Positions 5,959 to 9,013 of a stretch of DNA of 64,000 nt are shown here, one piece after another. Below the pieces are notes generated by a model. The model was given only the letters and a program-made list of their open reading frames with translations, did not search any database and had not been told where the DNA came from. The position numbers were made by a program, and so were the translations under genes. The stretch's first letter is position 1. Each line of letters begins with the position of its first letter. The DNA comes from Salinarimonas sp. GTDB lineage: Bacteria; Pseudomonadota; Alphaproteobacteria; Rhizobiales; Beijerinckiaceae. The DNA is taken from assembly GCF_040111675.1 (NCBI RefSeq), contig NZ_CP157794.1, forward strand, positions 310,001 to 374,000, given 5' to 3'.

Positions 5959-6099
5959 GGGAGAAGCTTATGACGGCTCGCCGCGGCTGGGAAGAGCCGC
6001 TTTCGAAGGAGGCGTTGCGACGCACGGGCGCGGGCTCGCGCTTCGCGCATGGGCCGGGCCGAGGCTATCCTGACCGCCGGTCGGTCCGGAGCACCTCCC

Positions 6100-6314
6100 A
6101 TGCGAAGCCGTCTCGTCCTGATCGAGGCCGCTTTCGACGACGATCCGACGTCAGGACCGTCGAGCACAGCGCGATCCCCGGCCTCTGCCGCGAGGCCGCG
6201 AGCCACGACGCGCTCATCGCCCGGCTGCCGGGGATGGTGGCGGACCTGATCGAGGAGAACGGGGCGGAGGGTGAGCCGATTTCCGATCCGAGGCAGCGGG
6301 GCTATATACCCTGA
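6100..6314 (+). pseudogene. Frameshifted DUF1902 / HicB-like antitoxin remnant
   Basis: Translation from the ATG at 6100 gives MRSRLVLIEAAFDDDPT, the usual opening of DUF1902 proteins. The rest of the domain (VEHSAIPGLCREAASHDALI, then ARLPGMVADLIEENG) continues in another frame from about 6147 to a stop at 6312-6314. A single indel near 6145-6155, with loss of a few residues, explains both halves. DUF1902 proteins resemble HicB-type antitoxins and are often followed by a HicA-like toxin. Here the next 140 bases are AT-richer and non-coding, so any partner has been lost. Domain identity is from recognition of the conserved pattern, not a search. Confidence 0.6.
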
Positions 6315-6451
6315 CGCTTAGCACAATCGGCCAAGCATTATCGTAGTTTTCTGTATGTTCCCTGAGAGCCATGCGTATGCTCTTGATGCGCAGATGAGTT
6401 CAAGCTAATTGTATAGCGTCCTTATCGACCATTCAGAGGTGGGCTAACAAA

Positions 6452-6937
6452 GTGCGCGATGTCCTTTTTAGCATTCACCCGATCTATGCTGACGCGATAC
6501 TTTCTGGGCGGAAACATGTTGAGGTGCGCCGTCGCTACCCGCTGAGGGAAACGGTCGGGGGAACTATGTTTATCTATGCGACGAAGCCGATAGGTGCAAT
6601 TATAGGCACCGCTCGGATTGCGGGTGTGGAAATTCTGGGTGTCGATCGTCTCCTGGAGCGTTATGGAGACGCGATTTTAATCGACAAGAGCGCTCTCGTG
6701 AATTACTTGAGTCCATCACAGACTGCTTTCGCGATCCGGCTTGAACAACCTTGCCGGATGCCGGTGCCTATTGAGCGCGAACAGCTGCTGCTTCGTGGTA
6801 TTACTCCACCACAGGCGTTCATGTATCTTCCTCGCGAGTTGAGCCATAGCTTGCCAGATGCCGGCTTTGATGATCCGAGACAAATGGCTTTCGATTTTTC
6901 GGAGAGCGGTAGCTGCGTCAAAGCCGGGTGCGCCTAG
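6452..6937 (+). CDS. ASCH-domain (PUA-like) protein, 3' end altered by IS insertion
   Basis: A 161-residue protein beginning at GTG, with GAGGTGG about ten bases upstream. The opening (MRDVLFSIHPIYADAILSG, then KHVEVRRRYP) is the typical start of ASCH-domain proteins, a PUA-related fold thought to bind RNA or modified nucleic acid. The codon use is clearly AT-richer than the flanking core genes. The stop codon TAG at 6935-6937 is made from the target-site TA plus the first base of the IS element. Without the insertion the frame would run 31 codons further to 7844 (see findings). Function is unknown. The visible domain is N-terminal, so the truncated protein may still fold. Confidence 0.75.
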   Translation: MRDVLFSIHPIYADAILSGRKHVEVRRRYPLRETVGGTMFIYATKPIGAIIGTARIAGVEILGVDRLLERYGDAILIDKSALVNYLSPSQTAFAIRLEQPCRMPVPIEREQLLLRGITPPQAFMYLPRELSHSLPDAGFDDPRQMAFDFSESGSCVKAGCA

Positions 6938-7748
6938 GATGCGGACTCATTTCGCGGCAAGCCAAATCCGGATCGCGGCGAGCTTGAGCGCGGCGAGGAA
7001 GTTGTCGGGCGAGCGGTCGTAGCGCGTGGCGAGGCCGCGGAAGTGCTTGATGCGATTGAAGAAGCGCTCAACGAGGTTTCGCTGGCGGTAGAGCCAGGAG
7101 CTGAACGGGAAGCTGCCCTTTCGGATCGCGCGGGGCGGGATGTTCGCCCAGGCGCCGCGTTCGGTCACCGTCGCGCGGATCGCGTTCGTGTCGTAGGCGC
7201 GGTCGGCGATCAGGATGGCGTCTTTCGCGACGAGCGGAAGGAGCTGCTCGCAGGCCGGTGCGTCGTTTGCCTGCCCTGCGGTGAGCAGGAGGCGAACCGG
7301 CCGCCCTTCCGCATCGACGAGGGCGTGGATCTTGGTCGTCAGGCCGCCGCGGGAACGTCCCATGCGACCATCTCCGGCGGCCTCCGAATCCCCCTTTTTC
7401 CCGCGGCCCCGTGCTGGTGGACGCGGACGCAGGAGCTGTCGATCATCACGATGTCGCCGTCGTAAGCCTCTGAGACGGCGTCCAGAATTCGGTCCCAGAC
7501 GCCTGCTTTCCGCCATCGGACGAAGCGGTTGTAGAGCGTCGTGCGCGGGCCGTAGCGCTCGGGCACGTCGCGCCAGGGCGCACCCGTCCGGAAGCGCCAG
7601 ACGATCCCGTTGATCACCCGCCTGTCGTCCACCCGGGGCACGCCGCGCACCTTGTTCGGCAGAAGCGGCTGGATGATCGCCCATTCCTCGTCGGTCAGCT
7701 CATGGCGGCGCATCGAATCCTCCCTCGATCAGGAAGGTTGAATCATCC
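6937..7748 (-). mobile_element. IS5-family (IS427-group-like) insertion sequence
   Basis: An 812-base element bounded by TA dinucleotides at 6935-6936 and 7749-7750, consistent with the 2-bp TA duplication of the IS427 group. The outermost bases are inverted (GGATG on the left, CATCC on the right), and beyond that the terminal repeats are weakly matched. It carries one transposase in two overlapping frames on the minus strand and has a higher GC content than the island around it. It disrupts the ASCH gene. Confidence 0.85.
6947..7713 (-). CDS. IS5-family transposase made by -1 ribosomal frameshifting
   Basis: The first frame (7713 down to 7339) encodes the N-terminal DUF4096-type domain, opening MRRHELTDEEWAIIQPLLP, and the first catalytic Asp in VMIDSSCVRVH. 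The second frame supplies the rest: LTTKIHALVDAEGRPV, the second Asp in ILIADRAYDTN, and the Glu in RNLVERFFNRIKHFRG, ending at 6947. The join is a canonical heptamer G_GGA_AAA at 7402-7396 on the minus strand, where a -1 slip moves ribosomes from the first frame to the second. GGGAGG lies six bases before the ATG. The DDE triad is complete, so the element looks intact rather than degenerate. Confidence 0.85.
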
Positions 7749-7794
7749 TACGCTCGAGCGATCAAATCCGCTTTGCCGTTTATGGGGCCAGAGC

Positions 7795-8853
7795 CTAAGC
7801 CAGAAGTCGGGCGGGAACCTCAGCAAGTTCGAGGATATGTCTGAACTCGCCGTCTGTGATGCGGCGAAACTGAAATCGTGGGGGGTCGGTCAAGCCTACG
7901 ACGTCGAGCAGCCTGTCCCGGTTGGGGCGCTTCGGAAACGCAATATTATAGGTCATTCTGACAGTAAAAAGCCTTTTGGTGCTATTGAACCGCTCTCGGA
8001 GCTCTTCTTCTGAGAACACGCTATGAGGAAGGCAGTAGTCGACAAATTCTTGAACGTTCGCGAAATCACGCCTGCTTCTCGTTTCTTCAACGACACAGAC
8101 CGAAGTCGCTACCGACCTGTAACGCGCCCGTCCACCCTTGTCTGTCGTGCGATAGATTACAACGGCGTCGCCTTTTTTCATCATTGTTAGTGGGAGCCCT
8201 GCGACATAAACCTTATGAATGGTATTCGTATGAGAAACATCGGACAGAATATCGGGGGGCTCGGTAACAAGGATTGAGTCTGGAAAAAGCTGCGTGTGGA
8301 ACTCGGGGTATATCGCTAAAAGAAAGCAGCGGCCAGATTCCTGTCTAATGATCGGGTATCTTTCAACAAGCTCATCCGAGGAGTCTGTAAGCTCCTTGAC
8401 GAGGACAATTTCCTCGCCGTTCGGCGTGATTTTATTTCCACGTTCTTCAAAGCCATACCGCTCTAGCAGTCGGAGCAAAGGCTTGTGTGTCGGAAAAGCA
8501 GTCACGTAGATTTGTTCTGCTTCAGAAGCTATCGCGTGGTCAAAGATCTTCTTTACCGCGCGCTCGCCGAGCTTTGTCCCGTGTGCAACGATTTTGAAGG
8601 TGCCGACCTTGATCCGCCGTGCCGCAGGTAGTGGTGGCTGCACATCCGTTACGGGTCCGTCTTCCAGCTTGAGATAAAGGAAGCCGCGGAGCTCGTCGAC
8701 ACCCTCGTCGTAGATCACGTAGGCTTGTTCACCCGAAGCAGCCTTGCCAGCGAACCATTGCGGAAACTCACCATACTGATTTTTCAAAGAGTCGAAAAAG
8801 GGATCGTCCAAATCAATGTCGCTCAAGGCTTTCAGCTGAAGGGTGCCAGGCAT
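7795..8853 (-). CDS. GNAT acetyltransferase fused to a PUA/ASCH-like domain
   Basis: A 352-residue protein, convergent with the ASCH gene. The N-terminal 150 residues resemble a GNAT fold: a YVIYDEGVDELRGFLYLKLE strand pair, a central KVGTFKIVAHGTKLGERAVK segment in the acetyl-CoA-binding position, and LLRLLERYGFEERG near the domain end. From about residue 170 a second domain follows, with a PUA/EVE-like core (MMKKGDAVVIYRTTDKGG, then RYRSVATSVCVVEE) and a C-terminal RNRDRLLDVVGL region. GGAG precedes the ATG by eight bases. Codon use is AT-richer than neighbours, suggesting acquisition. An RNA- or tRNA-directed acetyltransferase is possible, but this is inference. Confidence 0.7.
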   Translation of the reverse strand: MPGTLQLKALSDIDLDDPFFDSLKNQYGEFPQWFAGKAASGEQAYVIYDEGVDELRGFLYLKLEDGPVTDVQPPLPAARRIKVGTFKIVAHGTKLGERAVKKIFDHAIASEAEQIYVTAFPTHKPLLRLLERYGFEERGNKITPNGEEIVLVKELTDSSDELVERYPIIRQESGRCFLLAIYPEFHTQLFPDSILVTEPPDILSDVSHTNTIHKVYVAGLPLTMMKKGDAVVIYRTTDKGGRARYRSVATSVCVVEETRSRRDFANVQEFVDYCLPHSVFSEEELRERFNSTKRLFTVRMTYNIAFPKRPNRDRLLDVVGLTDPPRFQFRRITDGEFRHILELAEVPARLLA

Positions 8854-8933
8854 CGAATCGCTCCAACGTCGAGCATGAGCATGGCGATTACACGCGTGGA
8901 ACGCAAGAGAGATCGCTTCACGCCAAACTCCAC

Positions 8934-8963
8934 AAAAAAGCGCGGCCCCGAAGGACCGCGCTT
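8934..8963 (-). terminator. Intrinsic terminator of pnp
   Basis: On the minus strand an 11-base stem (AAGCGCGGTCC against GGCCCGCGCTT, one mismatch) with a four-base loop is followed by six T residues. It begins about 50 bases after the pnp stop and marks the boundary between the core rpsO-pnp region and the accessory island. Confidence 0.8.
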
Positions 8964-9013
8964 CCCAATCTCACAGACGACGCGGGGCGGCGCACCACCG
9001 CCCCGGCCCGTCC

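Follow-up and report, generated by a model that had tools for sequence, protein, structure and literature searches.

The window, by which we mean the whole 64,000-nucleotide stretch of Salinarimonas sp. DNA analysed here, carries a GNAT-EVE protein and an ASCH protein that almost certainly form a member of the (PIN)-GNAT-EVE + ASCH family (GevTA / PDC-M11). The usual GevA partner has most likely been replaced by an ASCH of another lineage. We read the pair as a horizontally acquired, rewired (PIN)-GNAT-EVE + ASCH module of the toxin-antitoxin type, acting in defence, whose antitoxin was replaced by another ASCH, and we give this reading as a whole a probability of about 60%. This convergent, partner-swapped GNAT-EVE/ASCH pair is a new variant within an already described family. 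Operons of (PIN)-GNAT-EVE and ASCH genes have been published as putative toxin-antitoxin systems, with PIN, HTH-ASCH and AAA_17 variants (Bell, Wolf and Koonin 2020, PMC7641849; Iyer et al. cited there), so a preliminary description of this DNA was wrong to call the module undescribed. A literature search found no paper describing GevT/GevA.

The island encodes an intact GNAT-EVE protein and an intact ASCH protein

The features of the locus are listed in Table 1. The ASCH ORF was intact and matched Pfam ASCH (PF04266, 3.6e-7), the sole match to PF04266 across the whole genome. Pfam returned sub-threshold matches for the 352-aa protein (EVE, 0.026; GNAT, 0.051). Both proteins were recognized by PADLOC models: PDC-M11A matched the 352-aa protein at 1e-128, and PDC-M11B matched the ASCH protein at 7e-23. 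PADLOC lists PDC-M11 (PDC-M11A + PDC-M11B) as a phage defence candidate. PHROG 6345 and 3136/11553, whose function is unassigned, also match the window proteins.

Table 1. Features of the GNAT-EVE/ASCH locus (positions are those of the window)
Feature	Position	Strand	Remarks
Island	~6132-8930	.	Lies in the intergenic region beside the pnp terminator; absent in same-genus genome G306
HicB/DUF1902-like fragment	~6171-6266	+	Left island edge; Pfam PF08972, 1.1e-6; residues 68-99 of ORF 5970-6314
ASCH gene	6452-6937	+	161 aa; GTG start, AGAGG upstream; related to PIN-GNAT-EVE-system ASCH and ZmASCH
Left IS target copy, CTAG	6934-6937	.	Includes the ASCH stop codon (TAG)
IS5-family IS, 857 bp	6938-7794	-	ORFs 7339-7713 and 6947-7684, probably frameshift-joined; lies precisely between the stop codons of both genes
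Right IS target copy, CTAA	7795-7798	.	Includes the gevT stop (minus strand); CTAG in seven other IS copies
gevT-like gene	7795-8853	-	352 aa, intact; GNAT ~1-155, EVE ~170-352
pnp terminator hairpin	8934-8966	-	Island border; from sequence inspection; retained in G306

The AlphaFold2 model of the 352-aa protein, GevT, had a mean pLDDT of 89 and a pTM of 0.87. Foldseek searches with this model retrieved GNAT enzymes and, as separate matches, ASCH structures including ZmASCH. The C-terminal PUA-like domain of GevT is an EVE domain. For the predicted model of the window ASCH (pLDDT 86), the nearest structure in Foldseek was ZmASCH (rmsd 1.5-1.8 Å). These results bear out the preliminary description of an ASCH protein beside a 352-residue GNAT-PUA-like protein. 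We did not observe an N-terminal PIN domain in window GevT, or an AAA_17 or HTH gene in the island.

Window GevT shared 42-60% identity with 46 relatives and kept 84 of 88 strongly conserved positions (those shared by 90% or more of the relatives). The 60%-identical relative, from Methylobacterium, is also 352 aa long, so the end of window GevT is natural whatever the history of the IS. The acetyl-CoA loop of window GevT reads HGTKLG, the family form is [HKRA]GT[KRL]xG, and the final glycine of the loop (Gly96) is invariant across the GevT family. The textbook GNAT acetyl-CoA motif is R/Q-x-x-G-x-G/A, and judged by sequence the motif of the GevT family is degenerate in comparison. An acetyl-CoA pocket, on which the preliminary description made its proposal depend, is therefore borne out in part: a GNAT domain is present in the predicted fold, but the motif is degenerate across the family.

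The window ASCH contains the GxKxxExR motif and deviates at 3 of the 22 positions that partner ASCH proteins conserve. Its tail is ~12 residues longer than those of its relatives; the C-terminal RQMAFDF of this tail is similar to the tails of alphaproteobacterial GevA.

Relatives of GevT are linked to ASCH genes

In the lambdoid phage PhiR47_2 (PV340567), a prophage protein named "GevT toxin" in GenBank is 48% identical to window GevT and adjoins a "GevA antitoxin", which is an ASCH protein overlapping the gevT relative. The toxin and antitoxin labels are the GenBank annotation of PV340567. Relatives of GevT also occur on plasmids and in phages and prophages. We observed a same-strand GevA-type ASCH at the 3' end of gevT in 73 of 80 genome loci, and in 72 of these 73 (72/80 genome loci) the gevA start lay inside the last codons of gevT. 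Each of the seven GevA-less loci had another ASCH type within ~5 kb, and some ASCH was linked to gevT in 80/80. Viral contigs showed the same pattern (same-strand GevA-type ASCH in 79/80), the one exception ending at the contig end. In E. coli, 275 of 5,426 genomes matched, all across the whole gevT-gevA stretch and at no less than 99% identity. The spread was patchy, with any relative found in 5 of 198 other genomes of the same taxonomic family (a set that includes Methylobacterium sp. Leaf465; L108 and L066 are one locus).

The co-occurrence of homologues that the preliminary description had proposed to search for is thus confirmed, and the toxin-antitoxin or anti-phage role that it considered possible agrees with the naming in PV340567, with Bell et al. 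2020 and with the PADLOC listing. It overlooked that the window ASCH is not the usual GevA.

Two further observations concern the surroundings of the family. The archaeal phage psiM100 carries a GNAT-EVE relative in its "inserted fragment IFa" (NC_002628 / AF301375). An uncharacterised protein of ~384 aa directly follows gevT or gevTA and recurs in Rhizobiales loci (L030:6153-7307, L033:6738-7892, L012:5959-7110); towards the C terminus, the L012 copy gave a weak 8xMP-like match.

The usual GevA partner has most likely been replaced by another ASCH

In the window, gevA was missing: GevT terminates in EVPARLLA, the IS follows, and there is no ORF at the gevA position. The window ASCH lies on the opposite strand, convergent with gevT. 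In a tree of a 25-row set, it grouped with the ASCH proteins of PIN-GNAT-EVE systems and not with GevA (support 95/93); its exact place is unsure because the branch is long and the columns are few. BLAST comparisons gave e-29 to e-24 against most PIN-branch ASCH proteins and e-17 to e-06 against GevA. We considered whether the window ASCH might be a diverged GevA, which the tree and BLAST ruled out. Relatives of the window ASCH in the order sit mostly beside PIN-GNAT-EVE or GNAT-EVE genes. The nearest ASCH by identity (39%, locus L132) overlaps a divergent protein that PDC-M11A matches weakly (3.5e-5).

The seven GevA-less loci had other partners. Five, from Rhizobiales, had a PIN-system HTH-ASCH upstream on the other strand at varying distance, and two, from Methylobacterium, had a YqfB-like ASCH downstream, with gevT broken by a stop in one of these, that of Methylobacterium dankookense.

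Several further arrangements were also observed. In that Methylobacterium dankookense locus, gevT (L028:5962-7056) has an in-frame stop near codon 50, GevA is lacking, and a second ASCH type, ASCH2, lies downstream. ASCH2 occurs near some (PIN)-GNAT-EVE genes (L014:9794-10294(-), L017:5930-6421(-), L066:7292-7762(+), L028:7129-7641(+), L110:441-1340(+)), and by hand alignment it appears to retain the Lys/Thr/Arg motif known from YqfB, an ac4C hydrolase. PADLOC models gave no match to ASCH2 (L066 copy tested). In Mesorhizobium loti and Sinorhizobium meliloti, a YqfB-like ASCH is convergent to PIN-GNAT-EVE genes; in a Mesorhizobium loti locus (L014:6414-9797), an IS1634 element splits the PIN-GNAT-EVE gene. 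A plasmid of Rhizobium anhuiense (L012:4498-10138) carries gevT-gevA, a 383-aa protein, HTH-ASCH, PIN-GNAT-EVE and AAA_17 in tandem.

The island was most likely acquired horizontally and carries an IS5-family element

In the same-genus genome G306 (L147), the match to the window runs to 6131, is followed by ~12 bp, and resumes at 8939 beside the pnp terminator. This empty site delimits an island of 2.8 kb that includes the HicB/DUF1902-like fragment. The module was most likely acquired horizontally. gevT was likewise absent from G345, a second same-genus genome, whose pnp lies on a different contig. The broken HicB-like remnant and the pnp terminator were both found at the borders where the preliminary description had placed them.

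GC content was 49-56% across windows covering the two genes, compared to 66-77% in most flanking windows and ~67% in the IS5-family element. The "AT-richer island" of the preliminary description therefore holds for the two genes, which are divided by a GC-rich IS. That description also called the genes tail to tail. They are convergent, and probably were before the IS arrived, but the 857-bp element that now separates them had been overlooked.

The two-frame transposase of this element matched NCBIfam IS5 models (4.5e-39 and 1.4e-46). The genome contains eight IS copies, identical over the compared stretch. Seven of the eight are flanked by CTAG at either end; in the window copy, CTAG stands at the left end and CTAA at the right. 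This is a young element, and its targets were apparently CTAG in every case. CTAG occurs 12 times in the 64-kb window, compared to ~171 expected from base composition. Upon in-silico removal of the IS and one target copy, both ORF ends were unchanged and the convergent stops overlapped in a single CTAG, on the assumption that the right CTAA is one substitution from CTAG. The convergent tail-to-tail layout thus probably held before insertion, and the IS5-family element would have inserted later at the ASCH/gevT boundary, leaving both ORFs unbroken. If CTAA is instead the original sequence, the IS may have mediated a rearrangement. We also considered whether the IS had split a gevA, and ruled this out because the far side of the element is without any gevA remnant.

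Comparison with known systems

Window GevT has the same GNAT-EVE architecture and length as the PhiR47_2 protein, and both have an ASCH partner. In PhiR47_2, gevA is on the same strand and overlaps the gevT 3' end, whereas in the window a different, convergent ASCH lies beyond the IS5 element. The window pair shares its domain architecture and obligatory ASCH association with the systems of Bell et al. (PMC7641849). Unlike the PIN systems described there, window GevT is PIN-less yet paired with a PIN-branch ASCH, in an island without AAA_17 or HTH genes. The window proteins match both component models of PDC-M11, and these are component matches only; for PDC-M11, the arrangement of the window genes is atypical in both order and orientation.

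Among proteins of solved structure, the window ASCH is most closely related to ZmASCH (ZMO0922; PDB 5guq, 5gus, 5y6b, 5y6c; E 2e-16). Of the three ZmASCH residues tested for RNA binding or cleavage, the Tyr47 equivalent is kept, and Lys53 and Ser128 are replaced by Gly and Ala. Compared by hand alignment to the Lys21/Thr24/Glu74 triad of the YqfB ac4C amidohydrolase, the window GRKHVEVR has the lysine, but a glutamate at Thr24. Because Lys53, Ser128 and the YqfB Thr nucleophile are missing, the residues of the window ASCH support neither known ASCH enzymatic activity.

TacT and AtaT are GNAT-fold toxins with RNA as a possible target, and in this they resemble window GevT, a candidate toxin. 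Their antitoxin is a ribbon-helix-helix protein (DUF1778), whereas the window partner is an ASCH, and window GevT has an additional EVE domain and a degenerate acetyl-CoA motif. The GNAT toxins known so far act by acetylating aminoacyl-tRNA (PMC7595197, PMC9177977), which offers an analogy for GevT.

Discussion

The toxin-antitoxin-type reading draws on the PDC-M11A/B matches, the GenBank naming of GevT and GevA, the linkage to ASCH and the published prediction (PMC7641849). By this reading GevT would be the effector: modified RNA, most likely tRNA, or DNA would be bound through the EVE domain and acetylated by the GNAT domain, upon which growth would stop; the ASCH protein would restrain GevT. 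In the window, the convergent PIN-branch ASCH probably took over neutralisation from the missing gevA. GevT is probably a toxin. Whether the window ASCH functions as its antitoxin we consider an even call. The reading as a whole is further supported by the empty site in G306, the 84/88 conserved positions of GevT, the length of its relative, the sole genomic ASCH grouping with the PIN branch at 95/93, and the predicted folds. By analogy, GevT may act through RNA acetylation, a tentative proposal somewhat short of even odds. The reading is weakened by the convergent layout, the degenerate HGTKLG, the CTAA at the right IS flank, which may point to an IS-mediated rearrangement, and the deviation of the ASCH at 3 of 22 positions together with its long branch. 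Convergent transcription is unusual in toxin-antitoxin pairs.

The two genes could instead be remnants, a gevT without gevA and an ASCH without its PIN-GNAT-EVE, joined by an IS-mediated deletion and decaying without forming a working pair. The unequal IS flanks, which differ from the CTAG on both sides of the seven other copies, would fit such a history, as would the tandem modules of Rhizobium anhuiense, the descent of the window ASCH from a branch other than GevA, the stop-broken gevT of Methylobacterium dankookense and the HicB-like fragment in the island. Both window ORFs are intact, however, and GevT has the length of its closest relative and its conserved positions. Moreover, other ASCH genes near all seven GevA-less loci indicate that loss of GevA is not in itself decay, and we consider this history unlikely.

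We regard it as similarly improbable that the ASCH is not an antitoxin but acts with GevT in defence, either as a weak single-strand RNase like ZmASCH or as a reader of modified nucleic acid. The nearest solved structure, ZmASCH, is an RNase in vitro whose Tyr47 has a counterpart here, and the ASCH of (PIN)-GNAT-EVE operons has been suggested to bind modified DNA (Bell et al., PMC7641849). The Gly and Ala at the positions of Lys53 and Ser128 speak against cleavage of this kind, as does the antitoxin label of the related GevA in PV340567 against a role as effector or reader. It is very improbable that GevT acetylates RNA in a housekeeping role and that the ASCH is unrelated cargo: the genes lie on opposite strands without a shared promoter or operon, but the linkage of ASCH to GNAT-EVE proteins is near-universal, the distribution is patchy, and relatives sit in prophages and plasmids.

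A more far-reaching proposal, which we hold to be a long shot, is that GevT can be partnered interchangeably by ASCH proteins from three lineages or more (GevA, HTH-ASCH/ZmASCH-like, and YqfB-like with the Lys/Thr/Arg motif of ac4C hydrolase) and that GNAT-EVE writes, and ASCH erases, a toxic acetylation on RNA. Such interchangeability would suggest an antitoxin that acts on the product or RNA substrate, as an eraser of the acetyl mark or a competitor, rather than a specific protein-protein lock.

GNAT-EVE/ASCH modules occur widely, on chromosomes and plasmids as well as in prophages, and our literature search found no biochemical study of them. Under the toxin-antitoxin-type reading with a swapped partner, loci of this kind are natural experiments on what the antitoxin has to achieve. 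The prediction from the window locus is that its ASCH should protect against its GevT. If the replacement ASCH neutralises GevT, no specific protein lock is required to explain how the antitoxin works.
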